From: Membranipora membranacea
Lineage: Eukaryota > Bryozoa > Gymnolaemata > Cheilostomatida > Membraniporidae
Assembly (NCBI GenBank): GCA_914767715.1
Contig: OU612070.1
Span: 15,703,501-15,767,500, forward strand
DNA length: 64,000 nt
Direction of reading: 5' to 3'
The notes beneath the pieces were generated by a model. The model had not been told where the DNA came from. It did no database searches and worked only from the letters and a program-made list of their open reading frames with translations. Position 1 is the stretch's first letter; every line of letters begins with the position of its first letter. Below, one piece after another: positions 11,286 to 48,281 of this stretch. A program made the position numbers and the translations under genes.

Positions 11286-11868
11286 AAAAGTCAAAAATGA
11301 CGTAATGAGTTGAGGGCGGATTTCAATCGATTCATGACACAACAGACAAAGGACCCTGGTAACTGATAAAGTTCGACGGAATCGTAAGGTTCTTATTTAT
11401 GAGAATCTTAACGAACACTGGCACAGATTTATTGCGTCATCGAAGGTTTGTACAGCTCATGCTGATGTAACCTCAATAGTTATCTTTCTTCGTTGGTCAG
11501 ACATTATTTCAGCCTTCCTATGGCTTTATCTTTAGCATATTTAGCGCTTTACTGCACATAAGCCATGTCCGCCACTAATCTTGAATAGGCCAAAATAAAC
11601 AAAAGTGAGCTAATGAGTTTAGGGCGGATTTCAATTGGGAATGACACCATATACTAAGGACCCTGGTAATAGATAAAGTTAAATGGAATTAAAAGATTCT
11701 TATTTATCAGGATCTTAACGAACAGTGGCACAGATTTACTGTGTCATCTGTCAGAAAAAGTTCTGTACTGCTCATGCTGATGTAAGAACCTCAATAGTTG
11801 CCATTTGGTAATCTGTCGTTGTTGGTCAGACATGATTTCAGTCTTTCTATGGCTTTACCTTTAACATA
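11286..11868. repeat. Tandem repeat, about 307-bp unit, copies 1 and 2 (left of the insertion)
   Basis: The anchor 'agggcgga' lies at 11313 and 11621, a spacing of 308 bp. Shared blocks include 'ggaccctggtaa', 'cttaacgaaca', 'ggcacagattta' and 'gctcatgctgatgtaa'. Copy 3 resumes after the transposon at 16027 with its anchor at 16085. Removing the 4,156-bp insert and its 2-bp duplication gives a spacing of 306 bp, so the three units were contiguous before insertion. Confidence 0.85.
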
Positions 11869-11900
11869 TGTGTCACGGCATAACAAAATGCAATCTAAGT
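11869..11900 (+). repeat. Left terminal inverted repeat of the DUF7869-like element
   Basis: It starts TGTGTCACGGCATAAC and is preceded by TA. It pairs with 15993-16024 with two mismatches, both near the outer end. Confidence 0.9.
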
Positions 11901-12203
11901 CGCATTCACTATAGTGTTATAATGAGTCATTGAAGTGGAACTACTTATAAAATGACATGTGCTCATGTTTTGACTTTTAATTTGTTTCTGACCAATTAAA
12001 ACCTCCTCTTTCATTCTAGAGTATTTTTGAGCCAATCAGATAACTACAAGTATGAGCAAAAGAGGTTTGAAAGCAACCCTTCCATAGTTACTATGGACAG
12101 CCTAAGTTTCTTATGACATTTTTAACAATCAGAGGACGGGCGTCGCGCTACCCACCCGCACTAAAATAAAAAAGTACATTCACACAATGCTTGTTGTTTA
12201 AAA

Positions 12204-15200
12204 ATGGCGTCTCAAATGCTGAATTCAGATGATTTAGATGAAGTTTTAGCAGAGTTTGCTGACATAGATAGGGAGTATTTTGACATGAGTAACAGAGTTC
12301 TGGATATAGATAATGAGGATGATTCTGATAGTGAAATGGGCACAGCTGAGGTAAACATAAACCCTGAATTGAACCAAAGAGAAGTTAATGAGCAACAAGG
12401 TGAGCCTGCAATTGTAAATGAAGAAGATGGACCACTGATGGCTGAAATCAATCATCAGTGTGAGAATGAGGACAATGATGAAGGAGTTGAGCCTCTTAAT
12501 GAAGAACTAACATTAGCTCAAAGGATAGGCTGTGTCTGTGGGTGTGCTGGGAGGATGGATGTAGAGGTGATAAATGCAGGAAGAGCTATTGCTCATAGTC
12601 TGAGCAAAGAATCCCTTGACATGATGGTGATGGGGAAAGTAAGTGTCATGATTCAGTGTGGACAGGAGACTGTCAGCAAAAAGCGCAAGCATCAGAAGGA
12701 AAGAAGAAGAGTACGCTGCAACTATACACATGAGCGTGAGTTGTTATCTTATGTATGTTATTATATTGCATAGAAACTAATGTCAGGAGAGGAGGCGTGA
12801 TAGCGACGGATTATCATTGATTTGTCTTTTAAAACATTGTTTACAGAATCAAGTATTTGTCGCCCCATGTTCGAGTACATGAATGCCGTTGGACAGAGGA
12901 GACTTGATTCTATCATAGCCTCGTACGTAGAAAACAATTATTGTGCACCCAGAGAGTTCAAGTACAATGTGGGGCATGGAAGAAACAGGAAGGCGCTGAC
13001 GCTAGAGGAATGTCGGAAGATTTATCACTATTTGCAGACGACAGCCAAAGTTCACGGACTTGATATTCCAGGTCGAATGCCAGGTACTTCCAAATAGTTT
13101 CTCATCCCATCATGATCTTAGAGCATCATTTTTTTCCTTGCCCTGCGCTGAAGCGATCTCAAACAATTATCCTACTAATGGTTTCTTCTTTCAGGTGTGA
13201 GAGATAATTATGAAACACACCAAGTGGTTGTTTTACCATGCGATTTCACCAAGAAAAGTATCCATGAGAGCTATACACAGGCCGCTGCAGTTGCTGGCTG
13301 GAGACCTGTCTGTATCCGTTCCTTCCAAGATGTGTGGAAGCGACTTATGCCTAACCTTCTCATCTCAAAGCCCAAGTCTGATCTATGCTGGACATGTCAG
13401 CAGAACAACATGAGAGCATTAGAGTAAGTTGAAATGGATTAAATCAACAACTAACAAATCCAAGTGCTAAATACGAGCTTACCATGCTTGATGAGTCCAC
13501 TTTGCAGCCAAGCTCTACTGTTTGCAGGCTGACTAATCTTGATCTCCAACGCAAAGAACAGTTAATGAGGGATCAACTGGAACACGTGGGCATCGCCACA
13601 AAGGCGAGGGAGTATATGAATACTTGTTCGAAGCGTTCTAAGGAGATTCTTTCCAATGCAAATGCAGTACTTGAGCCTCACGATCCACAGTCAGGTCCAG
13701 ATATGGCACACTATGGGTTTGACTTTGCTCAGCAGGTATATACTTAGACATAACTTACATCTCAATCTTCGATATCGCCGTCATACCATTTGAGTATAGA
13801 TCTAAATAACTGGAATGAATATCATGAACTATGCATGTTAATATAATAATTGAATATCCTCATTCATTTAGTGTACAGATATAACATCCAAAGGTAAGAT
13901 ATGTGTGGTGTGTGTCTAATATCGGTGTGTGTCACTTCGCAAATTTCTCTGATTTCACTGCTTACCCCTCCCTAACAGCGCCAAGTTGCTTTCTATCCAA
14001 TTATTTTTATATCTCACACATATTGACAGGTGTTGTACCCCTCAGATCCGATGCAACCCGGTCCAATATATTTCAAGACACCTCGCAAGTGTGGAATGTT
14101 TGGTGTTTGTGCTACTGGCTTCCCTTATCAAATAACATACTTGATTGATGAAGCAGCATCTTCAGGCAAGGGATCTAACCAAGTTATCTCCTATCTCCAC
14201 CACTACTTTCAGAGTTATGGACTCGGAGAAAAACATCTAACTCTTCACGCCGACAACTGCTGGTAAGATCATTGTGATAGATCAAGACAGATAGATTGGT
14301 AAGAGATAGCTTATATTATTTATGAAAATAATCATATGGATGTGTGTTGAATTGTAGCGGTCAAAATAAAAATAATACGATGATGTACTATCTAGCTTGG
14401 AGAGTCGCTCGAGGACTTCACTCATCGATTGAGATGAATTTTCTGGTGGCAGGGCACACTAAGTTCGCACCAGATCTTCACTTTGGTATGATTAAAAAGA
14501 AGTTCCGAAAGACGCGTGTCTCCAGTCTTGGTGCGCTTGAGAAGGTAAGTGATAGCGTATTCTGTGTTTAGGGCTCTTTAGATCTTATGGCATTAGTAGG
14601 TGTACCGTGACAAATTTCGATCTCATCTCATGTTGGTGACCAGTTGTTTATCAAATTTTACAGGTTGTGAATGAGTCCTCGAAAGGAAACCTCGCACAGC
14701 TTGTGATGGGAGCCGATGGCCACTCTCTTGTGAAAGTGTATGACTGGGCCTCATTCTTTAGTGGAGCCAAACCAATTAAAGCTATCAAAAAGCAACATCA
14801 GCTTCGTTTTCCTCCTTCACCTACAGGTAGGCGAGATGAATGCGTGTTGAATAAAGATAATGCGTATTGTTTTGACTGAATAACATTCCTATCAATGATC
14901 TGTTTGCAGGTACGGTTCTCACTAAAGAAACTGTTGATGGGCCAGAGTCAACTCATAGGGTTTATGAGTGTATCCCTGAAGGTTACCCACAAGAGATTCC
15001 ACCGCCAGGTCTAGACCCAAGCCGCCAATGGTACCTCTATGAGGAAATCAGGGAGTTCTGTGACTCGAGGTTTATGGACGAAGTTTGTCCCCTCCCATCA
15101 GTACAGAAGCCAACAGCTCTGCAGAAATTACAAGGTTCGATTCAACACTGATACAGTTACCGGTTTTTTAACTTAATCATTCGATGGACACATAATACAT

Positions 15201-15417
15201 AAAAATAATATAATAATATAATATATTTTATACTATATAATATATTATAAATTATAATATATATAATATTATATTATGTTGATAATACATTATATATGAA
15301 AATATGATTTTAGATCAGCAGCAGGCGAAGAAAGGAAAGGTATCGGGGAAGCAGCCAGCAAAGCAGCCAGCAAAGCAGCCAGCAAAGCAGCCAGCTAAGC
15401 GGGGCAGAAAGAAATAA
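12204..15417 (+). CDS. DUF7869-like putative transposase, nine exons, 726 residues
   Basis: Exons are 12204-12735, 12847-13083, 13195-13423, 13465-13735, 14030-14262, 14358-14544, 14664-14826, 14910-15134 and 15314-15417. They have GT/AG ends and sum to 2,181 nt, all in phase. The fourth exon follows an unusually short 41-bp intron, and the donor after exon 8 (gttcga) is weak. The N-terminus (1-100) is acidic, then C-x-C-x-C at 110-114. A C-W-T-C motif lies at 321-324. The core has G-F-D-F-A-Q-Q with D419, then L-H-A-D-N-C-C-G-Q-N-K-N-N with D498, then G-H-T-K-F-A-P-D with H534 and D540. The tail has four K-Q-P-A-type repeats and a basic end. The A-D-N-C-x-G-Q-N-K-N signature marks a widespread uncharacterised animal family that I associate with DUF7869 (from memory). 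The two Asp in beta-strand-like settings suggest an RNase H-fold nuclease (inference). Its position inside TIRs makes it the likely transposase. Confidence 0.85.
15150..15300. repeat. AT-rich low-complexity tract in the last intron
   Basis: Runs of 'ataatataat' and 'tatatta' dominate the intron before the last coding exon. A similar AT tract follows the stop codon at about 15420-15475. Confidence 0.7.
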
Positions 15418-15992
15418 ACCTATTATATAACATACAAATAAATTAAATGATAAATATATTATATTATATATTATCATACTAGACGCTTTATCTTTAATTG
15501 AAATGTTGCATTTGGAATAAATGCAATTGATATCTGGCTATCCTGCCAGCAATATAGTAGATTTTATACAGCACCTCGCTTAGTTATCTGTCATGTGACA
15601 TCGAAGATTTCGAAATTTAAGCGCCGCTTACCACGAACTTTGGCCCCTAATTACCACGTGATGTTGTGGTCTGAGCATCTAATTAATGTGTTCAGAGGAA
15701 TCGGCATGCTTGAATTACCCAAGGGTCACCCGTTTGATCAGCTATGTAAAAAAGATCATAGCGTATCCAAGGTGTTTAATAACGTAAACAACTTTGTCAT
15801 TCCATTTTAGGTGAAGTCTTTGTTTACTTGCCGTTTTCTCACAATCGGTATATCACGAGTTTGTGGGTAGTGTCTTACGATTATACTGATATCTCGAAAA
15901 CTATACTAGCTAGGCAGTTCAAATAAATTGCATTCAACTCAGCAGAGTTTACACTATAGGATGGACTGAAAAACCAGAAAAGTCCATTTCCA

Positions 15993-16024
15993 ACTTAGAT
16001 TGCATTTTGTCATGCCATGACACA
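15993..16024 (-). repeat. Right terminal inverted repeat of the DUF7869-like element
   Basis: Read on the minus strand it starts TGTGTCATGGCATGAC, matching the left repeat at 30 of 32 positions. It is followed by the TA duplicate at 16025-16026. An open frame at 15595-15810, between the gene and this repeat, has no recognised motif and is probably not coding. Confidence 0.9.
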
Positions 16025-16250
16025 TATTTAGCATTTTATCACACATAAACCATGTCCAAGATTCAAAAATGAGGTGATTAGTTTAGGGCGTATTCCAATC
16101 GGTTCATGATACCACAGACCAAGGAACCTGGTAAAAGATAAAGTTCGATGGAATCGAAAGACTCTAATGTATTAAAATCTCAATAAAGAGTGGCACAGAT
16201 TTACGGTGTAATCTGTCAGAAAAAGTTCTGTACTGCTCATGCTGAGTCAA
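16025..16250. repeat. Tandem repeat, about 307-bp unit, copy 3 (right of the insertion)
   Basis: It continues unit 2 after the transposon, through 'tttagggcgtattccaatcgg', 'ggcacagattta' and 'gttctgtactgctcatgctga', and diverges near 16245. Confidence 0.85.
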
Positions 16251-22293: not shown

Positions 22294-23105
22294 GTGGCCA
22301 TAACTGCGGCACTTTATGTTTATATCCTTACATTATTGCTTACATTATATGACATGAAAAATCAGATGATGTCTTACATAGAGAAACACAACCTATTTTC
22401 AGACCAACAATTCGGATTTCGTCAGAAACATTCAACCGAGCAAATGTTGCTATCTGTGCTGCAACAATGGAAAACTAAACTTGACCAATCCACTCCATGT
22501 TACATTGGAGCCTTATCCCTAGATGTCCGAAAAGCATTTGATACAATCAATCACAAACTTCTTCTATACATACTGGATAAAAAACAATTCTCAAGTTCTG
22601 CAATAGCACTACTTCGATCATATCTTCAAAACCGATCCCAAGTAATGAAAGTGGGGTTGTCACGATCTAATTCACAAGCAATCACCTGTGGGGTACCTCA
22701 AGGCTCAATTCTGGGTCCTATCCTCTTTAACTTAGCCATCAATGGATTGCTAGCAACATTTGACTTTGCTTTGCAGATGATACGCTAATCTACTGTACAG
22801 CCACAAGCATAGATGAAGTACTAGTGGAGTCCAATACTCTGCTAAAAAAAGCATCAGATTGGTATCATAGCCACTTACTGAGACTCAACATTGAGAAAAC
22901 ACAATTGTGCATATTTTCCAACAGAAACATTAAAAACTTCTACCACATCAATTTTCAAAACTCAAAAATTGAGACAAAACTCTCTATCAATGTACTAGGG
23001 GTTACCCTGGATACTGATTTATCTTTCCACATCCATGCCAATTGTAAGATTGAAAATATCATTGTCCTTGTTTTATTACCCATCACTAGGTCATGTTTTA
23101 TTTAG
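22294..23105 (+). pseudogene. Non-LTR retrotransposon (LINE) reverse transcriptase fragment
   Basis: Two open segments joined by a frameshift at about 22765 encode part of an RT domain. Motifs in order: F-G-F-R-Q-K-H-S-T-E (palm/finger), L-D-V-R-K-A-F-D-T-I-N-H (first catalytic Asp), G-V-P-Q-G-S-I-L-G-P-I-L-F, then, in the shifted frame, F-A-D-D-T (catalytic Asp pair), L-R-L-N-I-E-K-T and L-G-V-T-L-D. The pattern is that of jockey/CR1-type LINEs. The endonuclease and the N-terminal RT motifs are absent, as in a 5'-truncated copy. The frameshift next to the F-A-D-D box shows it is dead. Confidence 0.85.
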
Positions 23106-44210: not shown

Positions 44211-47200
44211 TTAATTATCACGATTTCCCATGGGTACGTAGCCTCCAGGAAGGAAGGTATGGCAAATATCAGGGTTTCTCCTGGGGCCAACGTAGCCTCC
44301 TGGAGGGCTATATAAGTAGGCATCATTTGCATCATCTTGACCAACATTTATGTACCCCTCTGGTGTTGCATTGATATCAATGTTAGCGTAAATTTCTCCT
44401 TCAACATCAACTTCAGCATATTCATTATTTTCTTCTGCGGCCTCAGGAGGTAAGGGTCGCTGTTGGTTAGCTCTCTGTGAGCCATGTTGAATGCCTCTCG
44501 GTAGCTGATCCAAATCCACCGTTGTCTCGACCTTTCTAGAAGAGTAGACATAGGGCACTATGCTAAGTAGTGTTATTTCACAACAGGGGCAGGGCGTGAG
44601 CTCTGTGAAATGCAATGGCATAACTCTGATTAGTGGATAGTGGGCTTGCTAATTAGCGACACCAACTGTAGGACCTTTTGAATTCACTATGTGATTGTTG
44701 TCGCAATAGAGCTGGGTTCAAGTTCCATTGGGGGTGGGGGGAGATTCTCGATTAATTGTTCGAGCTTTAGACACCCTCAATGCATCTTCTACCTCTCCCA
44801 ACATTAACAAGATCTCTGAGTCCAAACTCCACTTGGACCTGACTTAAGCTTATGAACACCCTAGACAGTTTTTGCTCAGAAGTTTCTCTCGGTCACAAAC
44901 ATGAAAGTGAGGGGGCCTAGGACGCTCTCACTGATAATGAACGGCAATGGTTGGCACAAAAGTTTTGCTTTTACACTAGAATTAGATATCCATTATTGTA
45001 ATAGTTATAAGAACAGCTACAGCTGTGATACACTCTAATGTGTGTTACTCACTCTTTCTTACGCTTCCTTCCTTTCCTACAGAAGTAAAGTCCTGACACA
45101 ATCGGAAATATAATTACAGCTGCTGCAGCTAAAGTAATAACGATAATCACACCATCTGCAATAGAAAAACAATTCTTGGAACACTATGCAACTAGGCAAT
45201 ACTGCGGCTCCGCTCATTTGATTTGAAGTATTATCAAGGTATCAAGGCTTCAACTGTACTTCTCTAGTATGATCAAACAGAAAATTACAAAGATTTTGCC
45301 AACTTGTATGTGAGAATTTTGATTAAGGTATAAATTACACTATCTTTCCAATATGGTATTATAGAATATTTGGGAAGTGATTCCTCCTCGTCAGACGGCT
45401 GTGAGTGCAAGTTAGTGGCAAAACAATATCAAACCCTCATTTTAAAAAGTGTGAGAATGAATGTTTAATAATTTTATGCCACTGCGCTTGCAGCCGTCTG
45501 AGCACTTGTATAAACTCAACTAGTAGTAGCTTTGCTGTACCTGACGGCCTCATATACTGCACAGGATCAGTCAACTGGGTGAAAGGTGTTGAATATGACT
45601 TCCAAGGTAAAGTAGTTGCTGATTTGTTGTTTGTGCGACTTGGTGGGGTGAATGCAGATGGGATTGTGGATGTGTTTGATTTTGCTGGATAAGTTGTCGT
45701 TGGTTTGGTTGTTGTTGGTTTAGCTGTTGCTGTTTTGGTTGTTGTTGTTGCAGGCATGGTAGTTGCTGTTGGTGTTGTTGTTGTTAGCATGGTTGTTGTT
45801 GTTGTCAGTGTGGTTGTTTTTGGTGTTTTTGTTGTTGGTGTTGTAGTTGTTGTTGTTGGTGTTGGTGTTGGTGTTGTTGTTGTACTTGTTGTTGTACTTG
45901 TTGTTGTTGGTGTAGTTGTTGTTGGTGTGGTTGTTGTTCGAATTGTTGTTGTTGGGGTAGTTGTTGTTGGTGTGGTTGTTGTTGTTGTCAGTGTGGTTGT
46001 TTTTGGTGTTGTTGTTGTTGGTGTTGTAGTTGTTGTTGTTGTTGGTGTTGTTGTTGTACTTGTTGTTGTACTTGTTGTTGTACTTGTTGTTGTACTTGTT
46101 GTTGTTGGTGTAGTTGTTGTTGGTGTGGTTGTTGTTGGAGTTGTTGTGGTTGAGGTAGTTGTTGTTTGATTAGTAACTGAAAATGAATAGCAATTGAAAT
46201 TCAACAAAACGTGTATGTCTGACTTTATGGTAGTAAGTAGTAACTTATTTTTTTGTTGTTATTCTAGCATACCGAAGACCGTAGTTTATCAAATTGAAAT
46301 CTACAGCTCAAACATATATTTAAAAGGGAGAGTGCAGAATGGAGATTATTAATTGCAAATACTGAGGCTTAGGGCTGATATTCCCATAGAGATCAGACAC
46401 TGGTCGCTTTCAATCATACTACAAGAGGGTAGCCACGACTTCAATTATCCATAACAATGACTCACTTTAGTTGCCTCACTCACAGAATGACCAACTAAGA
46501 GAAAATGTTATACATACATTGGATAATAACCGATTTAATGTCTCCATATTGTCCTAGAAAAATCTTCCTCACATCCAGCAAGGTTAGTAAACAATAAGGC
46601 TCATACAGATTACAATGCTGTATTTCTCCATCTATCCTTCCTTTGACTCCTTTAAGAGCAAAAAACAAGTATGAAACATGTATCAGTTGCAGTGTACTGA
46701 TGCTGCTCTGTATAATTAATGACATTCAATGAGTTATCTTTTTTTCTTTTATAAAAATTGTCTGTTTCATCAATATTGTTTTAGAATGGAACAGTGCTAT
46801 ACACTATATATTGTTTAAAATGTTGATGAAGATGTCTCGAAAGATCAAATATCAAAGGCTTTTTCGTATCTATATGGGGAAAGTGTTTGCTTCTCAGGCA
46901 ATAATTTGCAAGCAAATTTGCCTAGTGGGAATCACATGAGAATGGAATCTGTGTGAAGTCATGCTGAGAAATTGACTATAAAATCTCAGTCCTAATTCCA
47001 ATAAAAAAGACACACTTCAATTATGATTGTCATTACTCATTTAATGCAAGGAATAGCTTGATTATAAAAGGCTAGAGCTTTCTTACCAGAACAGCTTGAG
47101 GAAACTCTGTTATAAGCAGTGTCCACAATTCGCAGTACACTATTTCCATAATCTGCCACAATAAAACTATTGCCTGTGACGCGACTGATACCATACGGAT

Positions 47201-48281
47201 TGGAGAATTCGGAACTAGCAAGAGCACCGTCAGTGTATCCATTGGTGTCTTGAGTGAGAAAATAGAGGTGATTGTTACTAAGGCTAAATCTTGCTAGGCC
47301 ATGACGAATGGTGATGTAAATGTTTTCTCCCATAAAGTCGAATGCCATACCCCTTGGTTCATTTAAAGGTCGACTCGCTGTTGACACGGTATTGCCTGAG
47401 ATCTTCCTGATAACATTGTTATATTCATCACTCACATAAAACCTGTTATTCGCTTTGGGGTCCTTGAGTAGACCGTAAGGTTTGTAAAACCTAGACTGAG
47501 AGAGGCCCTGATCATTGTGTCCGCCATTCTGGCATATGCCAGCGAAGGTTGATGTGGTATTTGTCACTCGATTTACGGCTCGGATACAATGATTATAATG
47601 GTCCACTGCTAGCAGAACCTGTGAGCTCAGCTGAATAAACGAAGTCACCCATGTGAATAATGCAGCAGTCCCTTGGCCATCTCTGAATCCGGACGTTTCT
47701 GTTTGACCTACGATGGGATGTTCCTGAAAGTTCTCGTCCACTATTGTCAGCGAATTCCACAGAGATATGATGAGGTGATCGGGATTCTGTAGATCGACCT
47801 CAATGTGTAAGATCGGCGCGTGAATTAGAGGAGAATGATAGCCTTCCACTCTGTAGTATGTCATGCTGCAAAGTCAAACCAAAATTCCTATCATACACAA
47901 AAAATGACCAATATACATACATAATACACTTCATTTGCTACTCAGTGCCCCTGTCGGGCTAATGAGCCTATCTCTGTATTTATAACTAGATTGAACCATA
48001 ATGAGACAATTTCAAACAGGAAGTCAAAATGAACAGGTTTGACATGTCAAGGTTTTTAGTTTACAAGTTTCTCCGGCTGGGTGGACGTCTGACAAAGACA
48101 AAAGTCTGGGGGCGGGGGTGATCTCAGACTAGGGTTGAGATAATGCTAGTCATTTACGGTAAGGACTAAACTGGTGGTCAACTTACCCATCTACTTGTTG
48201 TTCTATGTCTGCAGATGCATTAAAAACCAGATTGAGCACTGTTACCAAATATGCGGGGAAGATGTCCATTGCGTGGAACAT
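44211..48281 (-). CDS. NHL-repeat/mucin-stalk transmembrane receptor with tyrosine-rich tail, 645 residues
   Basis: Minus-strand exons are 48187-48281, 47087-47865, 45541-46176, 45053-45155 and 44211-44535. They sum to 1,938 nt in phase. Residues 1-24 are a hydrophobic signal sequence. Residues 32-291 form a beta-propeller of NHL-type repeats (for example Y-V-S-D-E-Y-N-N-V-I-R-K-I and F-I-V-A-D-Y-G-N-S-V-L-R-I). Residues 292-503 are a Thr/Pro mucin-like stalk. Residues about 506-527 are a TM helix followed by R-K-G-R-K-R-K-K. The 108-residue tail has seven tyrosines: Y-A-E-V and Y-A-N-I spaced six residues apart (ITAM-like), Y-I-N-V (Grb2-type Y-x-N), then Y-V-P-M (PI3K-type Y-x-x-M) near the end. 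It is likely a surface receptor signalling through tyrosine phosphorylation. The ligand is unknown. No breaks seen. Confidence 0.85.
45390..45511. repeat. Hairpin MITE, copy 4
   Basis: The arms gtcagacggctgtgagtgca and inverse 'gcttgcagccgtctgagcac' lie in the NHL receptor intron between the mucin and TM exons. The left end lacks the outermost 'tagtctaagtgct', so it is slightly truncated or diverged. Confidence 0.7.
45700..46165 (-). repeat. (GTT)n-type minisatellite encoding the poly-Thr stalk
   Basis: On the plus strand the tract is built of 'gttgttgttggtgt' variants. On the minus strand it encodes Thr runs with regular Pro. A longer unit containing 'gtcagtgtggttgtttttgg' is present twice, at about 45807 and 45988, so the stalk grew by internal duplication. 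The long plus-strand open frame here (poly-Val) is a by-product. Confidence 0.8.

Follow-up and report, generated by a model that had tools for sequence, protein, structure and literature searches.

A DNA transposon of Membranipora membranacea in which DUF7869 is the probable transposase core

Structure of the element and its gene

We analysed a 64,000-nucleotide stretch of DNA from Membranipora membranacea (the window), in which a 4,154-bp element at positions 11870–16023 carries a single DUF7869 gene between inverted ends. The element sits inside a host repeat whose neighbouring upstream unit lacks it. Its arms (11866–11900 and 15993–16027) are inverted and 33/35 identical with the flanking duplication included; without those 4 bp, the terminal inverted repeats (TIRs) are 31 bp long and match at 29/31 positions, bearing out the 32-bp inverted repeats (30/32) of a preliminary description. 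The neighbouring empty site claimed there was also recovered, in that both flanks, fused with a single ATAT, align across the junction to the upstream unit at 11303–11780. The element is real, and its borders and insertion site are as follows.

11303–11780, no strand: empty site, the upstream unit of the host repeat, with target ATAT at 11537–11540
11866–11869, no strand: target duplication, left copy, ATAT
11870–11900, + strand: left TIR, 31 bp, 29/31 against the right end (also by end-pattern search)
15993–16023, − strand: right TIR, 31 bp (arm comparison and end-pattern search)
16024–16027, no strand: target duplication, right copy, ATAT

The single gene between the arms has nine exons and eight introns, all of them GT..AG, and an intact frame of 705 amino acids (aa); no second gene was seen in the element. 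The single gene copy and its intact spliced frame thus agree with the preliminary description, which had called the copy uninterrupted, but eight introns interrupt it. The exon model was built by hand and finds outside support in bacterial proteins that match the spliced product. Pfam places PF25273 (DUF7869) at residues 447–600 (E = 2.1e-18; 67 bits against a curated cut-off of 26), confirming the earlier label of DUF7869-like, and neither a mariner family nor Fanzor1 is among the Pfam matches of the protein. The earlier statement that the family has no described function agrees with the literature searched: in a text search of full-text papers the name DUF7869 was not found, and GQNKN gave matches on unrelated subjects only. 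The exons are listed below.

12204–12735, + strand: exon 1, N-terminal part with a Cys cluster (the best bacterial BLASTP match begins at residue 104)
12847–13083, + strand: exon 2, match to bacterial relatives
13195–13423, + strand: exon 3, SDLC-x-x-C motif close to its end, match to bacterial relatives
13528–13735, + strand: exon 4, first invariant Asp, D398 (alignment)
14030–14262, + strand: exon 5, second invariant Asp, D477, and ADNC motif (Pfam, alignment)
14358–14544, + strand: exon 6, GQNKNN and GHTKFAPD with third invariant Asp, D519 (profile, alignment)
14664–14826, + strand: exon 7, match to bacterial relatives
14910–15134, + strand: exon 8, RQWYLY motif common to most aligned bacterial relatives (alignment)
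15314–15417, + strand: exon 9, lysine-rich tail and TAA stop

Copies of the element and their target duplications

A 101-bp query taken from the left end matched 11 places in the genome (339 Mb, 18 contigs), including the window copy itself and the right end of that copy. A degenerate end pattern, derived from these same copies, gave 20 matches at up to 3 mismatches and 0 in its reversed control. Two copies that retain both ends, L009 (2,209 bp) and L010 (1,668 bp), have lost internal DNA; L011 and L012 are fragments, and L013–L017 form a related subfamily of 2.1–2.7 kb carrying 5′ parts of the gene. Two ends deviate from the end pattern, the right one of L010 and one of L017, and for the single ends L062, L063 and L075 a second end was not found within 1.5 kb on either side. 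In its own subfamily the window copy is the only full one seen; deletions or breaks affect each of the other four places whose left ends are near-identical.

An exact 4-bp duplication flanks six of ten two-ended copies (ATAT three times, AAAT twice, ATTT once), the ten comprising eight from two subfamilies and two full-size relatives assembled from adjoining stretches. No copy is exact at 3, 5, 6, 7 or 8 bp and four are exact at 2 bp, while random re-pairing of left and right 4-mers reached six matches in 9 of 20,000 shuffles. A chance origin of the shared ends and shared 4-mers is rejected by the reversed control and the re-pairing. Since the palindromic ATAT of the window can be read as TA or as ATAT, the other copies decide the length, and they decide for 4 bp. 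The TA duplication proposed earlier is therefore abandoned, because AAAT and ATTT cannot be read as TA. The suggested search for copies sharing both ends did yield shorter, internally deleted ones that retain the two ends together with parts of the gene. These two 4-mers equally separate the element from Tc1/mariner, with its 2-bp TA duplication. The elements piggyBac and Kolobok duplicate TTAA, as against the exact ATAT, AAAT and ATTT seen here, and PIF/Harbinger duplicates 3 bp, a length at which none of the ten copies is exact.

DUF7869 families in the same genome

A DUF7869 profile search found at least 33 places in the Membranipora genome, and 30 loci compared by DNA and protein formed six groups and the single locus L042. 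The window group also takes in L020, L028/L032, L033/L036/L037 and L035. The ends of the L035 element (4,233 bp, AAAT duplication) and the L028 element (3,828 bp, ATAT duplication) begin GTGT and GTGG, and for L033/L037 the right end alone was seen; three other end-types, one of them known by its right end only, thus carry relatives of the same gene. Four families aligned at 19–21% identity to the window protein show twelve invariant columns, of which three are Asp, corresponding to D398, D477 and D519 with spacings of 79 and 42.

Sharp shared borders occur in places among the other families, F2–F6. Family F2 comprises nine loci (L024–L027, L029–L031, L034 and L041), and one end matches 20 genome places. 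In F3 (L018, L021) the stretch common to both begins TTAAATACTTG, so its target may differ from AWWT. In F6 (L044–L047), whose frames reach 486 aa, the copies have a sharp border in common that begins CTGCCCACTG; on C2, at a distance of about 20 kb, there is a 38-bp match to this end in inverted orientation, which might mark a much larger element.

Bacterial relatives

A scan of genome contigs with the four-family alignment gave 32 pattern matches, 11 of which encode relatives whose best segments reach 40–53% to the domain of the window protein. The source records are Desulfocicer vacuolatum, Thiomargarita, Deltaproteobacteria, Desulfobacterales, Nitrospirales, Verrucomicrobia, Legionellales and Cycloclasticus, and seven of the 11 titles say metagenome-assembled genome (MAG). 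All eight bacterial proteins compared by BLASTP match the spliced window protein, the best at 33% over residues 104–668 (E = 7e-102), and Pfam found DUF7869 in all eight scanned. DDE_Tnp_ISAZ013 appeared in two of these eight (best 0.018), below the cut-off and no better than chance matches such as IMD at 0.011, and NCBIfam gave no match near its cut-off in the four proteins scanned.

Clear inverted arms lie outside the open reading frame (ORF) in six of the 11 loci (L078, L079, L080, L082, L083 and L084, the end of L084 being set by eye, with a local alignment that continues outward past the 4-mer at low identity). These six elements, which come from Desulfocicer, Thiomargarita, Desulfobacterales and MAG records, are about 2.1–2.7 kb long, with one uninterrupted ORF and arms of about 42–61 bp. 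The record of L081 lacks the left flank, and no convincing inverted arms were seen around the ORFs of L085, L086, L087 and L088. At L078:3368–3898 a frame of 176 aa continues into the Desulfocicer element at its left end, giving the appearance of a gene split by the insertion.

All seven bacterial genomes searched for more copies held one match each, so that their duplications cannot be checked by comparing copies. In a one-phylum sample DUF7869 was found in 1 of 297 genomes, that one being the centre genome already found, and the bacterial relatives look rare. No relative was confirmed in viral contigs, and the L079 protein had no match in plasmids or phages.

A shared end register and the protein tree

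We aligned nine chosen animal ends (from the window, L015, the L035 and L028 elements and one L033-family end) and 12 bacterial ends with position 1 directly after the 4-mer, leaving out copies L009, L010, L013, L014, L016 and L017; starts were chosen by eye as the first G after the 4-mer, and both ends of one element are not independent. Animal and bacterial ends have in common CAAAA or AAAA near positions 15–19 and, frequently, a TAAG-like stretch near positions 26–30. On the animal profile the bacterial ends score a mean of 2.63, against a column-permuted mean of −16.57 (best of 2,000 permutations, −1.09), and scores fall between −7 and −21 when these ends are shifted by 1–8 bp; the L033-family end fits poorly. 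AWWT occurs in 20 of the 21 chosen animal and bacterial end 4-mers, and among the six bacterial loci L079 and L082 only have equal 4-mers on their two sides. The termini differ, being GTGT or GTGG in the animal and mostly GGGG in bacteria. Taken with the protein matches, this register indicates that some bacterial elements share a putative enzyme and an end layout with the animal element.

A tree was built from ten of the 11 bacterial proteins (the short frame L086 omitted) and nine animal rows; in four rows more than half of the positions are empty, branches are long and the tree was rooted at its midpoint. The window group, represented by six animal rows, is a single supported clade (100/99). 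Its sister is L088, from a Cycloclasticus sponge-symbiont MAG (95/94), and the clade falls among bacterial rows, at a distance from three divergent animal families. L088 might be DNA of the host that entered the bin of that MAG, or a transfer. It is possible, though on balance doubtful, that DUF7869 in its entirety makes up a transposase superfamily wider than Sola2, of which one animal genome contains several families at about 20% identity, and that the lineage of the window element passed between bacteria and animals as an entire element, its end register and AWWT target preserved and eight introns gained in animals (or lost in bacteria).

DUF7869 as a putative catalytic core

A predicted model of a bacterial relative has an RNase H-like order, and its nearest solved folds are Mos1 and retroviral integrases. 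The gene's presence, whole in the full copy and as fragments in the deleted ones, the three invariant Asp, the modelled fold of the bacterial relative and the one-ORF bacterial elements with their related protein and matching end register together lend good support to the earlier proposal that the family are transposases, and DUF7869 is very probably a DDD (three-aspartate) transposase.

In the mechanism that we propose, the RNase H-like DUF7869 core would perform catalysis with D398, D477 and D519, and binding of the 31-bp ends most likely falls to the Cys-containing N-terminal part, at the motif some 13–30 bp inside. The enzyme would cut beside 5′-GTG and join the ends to the target with a 4-bp stagger, preferring AWWT, a joining that would duplicate 4 bp. 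Internally deleted copies would have been moved in trans.

A Pfam domain of unknown function would in this way gain a testable role as a transposase catalytic core, and uncharacterized genes carrying it may be transposons or tamed transposases. The bacterial relatives, compact, with one ORF and similar ends, appear suited to biochemical work.

Classification and alternative explanations

We consider it probable that the element is a cut-and-paste DNA transposon in complete form, its superfamily most likely being Sola (Sola2 type), and that its only gene encodes a DDD transposase with DUF7869 as its RNase H-like catalytic domain. The possible new superfamily of the preliminary description is not needed, because the 4-bp AWWT duplication, the DDD enzyme and the range over bacteria and metazoans are published traits of Sola2 or Sola, a fit made by description and not by comparing proteins. 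The kind of system is known; what seems new here is the assignment of DUF7869 and the end register common to the animal and bacterial elements.

Several points count against this interpretation. The borders were placed by eye at GTG..CAC, four of the ten two-ended copies (L010, L014, L016 and L017) lack an exact 4-bp duplication, and flanking 4-mers are unequal in four of the six bacterial loci. The modelled protein is the bacterial relative and not the window protein, and its model is middling, with a predicted local distance difference test (pLDDT) of 72 and a predicted template-modelling score of 0.52; the stretch 469–474, which holds the third Asp, falls below a pLDDT of 50. Foldseek returned nothing below 1e-3 (best Mos1 at 1.1e-3, Argonautes from 9.4e-3), and the guide to the structure tool gives a best Z of 7–8 as typical for models with no clear Foldseek match. 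Searches of the PDB with two sequence profiles found no transposase, one (A1) giving two methyltransferases at about 0.01, judged chance, and the other (A2) no match. The Sola2 label, finally, draws on published descriptions and not on Sola2 protein sequences. For the window protein itself, sequence comparison with the PDB gave two matches with E about 1. The predicted fold of a single exon had a mean pLDDT of 56.8.

A separate, undescribed DDD superfamily with 4-bp AWWT duplications, merely resembling Sola2, would account for a likeness to Sola that is one of description, for the missing name DUF7869 in the literature searched, and for GTGT, GTGG and GGGG termini that are unmatched to published Sola2 ends; we nevertheless think it unlikely, given the same duplication length and AWWT choice as in Sola2 (PMC3627910) and the same DDD enzyme and bacterial and metazoan range as in Sola (PMC10741241), as far as those accounts are drawn on here. 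It is very improbable that the gene is a passenger of a transposon whose true transposase lies elsewhere: the window copy is indeed the sole full copy seen in its subfamily, with deletions or breaks at the other four places that have near-identical left ends, but no second gene was noticed in the element, related genes lie within three further end-types of this genome, the single ORFs of six bacterial elements encode related proteins, and both the invariant Asp and the modelled fold match those of a transposase. A Tc1/mariner-like element with a TA duplication, suggested by the reading of the window site as TA and by Mos1 as the nearest solved fold, is scarcely credible in view of the AAAT and ATTT duplications, the six of ten copies exact at 4 bp and the lack of a mariner family in the Pfam matches.

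Other features of the window

A reverse transcriptase fragment (RVT_1, E = 1.2e-18) at 22294–22788 on the + strand likely belongs to a non-LTR (non-long terminal repeat) element. On the − strand lie a long mucin-like repeat frame rich in Thr and Pro (45437–46207) and a frame matching the NHL repeat (47037–47864; E = 1.6e-6).

Comparison with known systems

With Mos1 and the retroviral integrases the bacterial-relative model has an RNase H-like core in common, whereas there is no detectable sequence match, the duplication is 4 bp and not TA, and the Asp spacing is 79 and 42. Pfam gives DUF7869, matched by the window protein and all eight bacterial proteins, as a domain of unknown function; here it is a putative catalytic core.

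As described in the parts of the Sola literature cited here, Sola2 elements of Dictyostelium and Polysphondylium have 4-bp AWWT duplications (ATAT, AAAT and ATTT are listed) and TIRs, and some relatives have most of the transposase region deleted (PMC3627910), as in the internally deleted copies of the window element. They differ in the length of their TIRs (12–13 or 21 bp there, 31 bp here) and in that those families carry Fanzor1 (PMC3627910), which Pfam did not find here. Sola as a whole is described as having a DDD enzyme and 4-bp duplications and as occurring in bacteria and metazoans (PMC10741241), and the window element agrees in its predicted DDD transposase and in the range of its relatives. 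The sizes (mostly 2–9 kb) and TIRs (11–1124 bp) given for Sola (PMC10741241) fit the 4,154 bp and 31 bp found here, and Sola1–3 are treated as subgroups of one superfamily in Repbase (PMC4455052).

The six bacterial elements with inverted arms resemble the window element in their colinear protein, the same inner end register and AWWT-like flanks, and differ in their uninterrupted ORF and in ends that are mostly GGGG and not GTGT. Together they offer an example of a protein, an end register and a target choice that appear to have been kept between bacteria and an animal.
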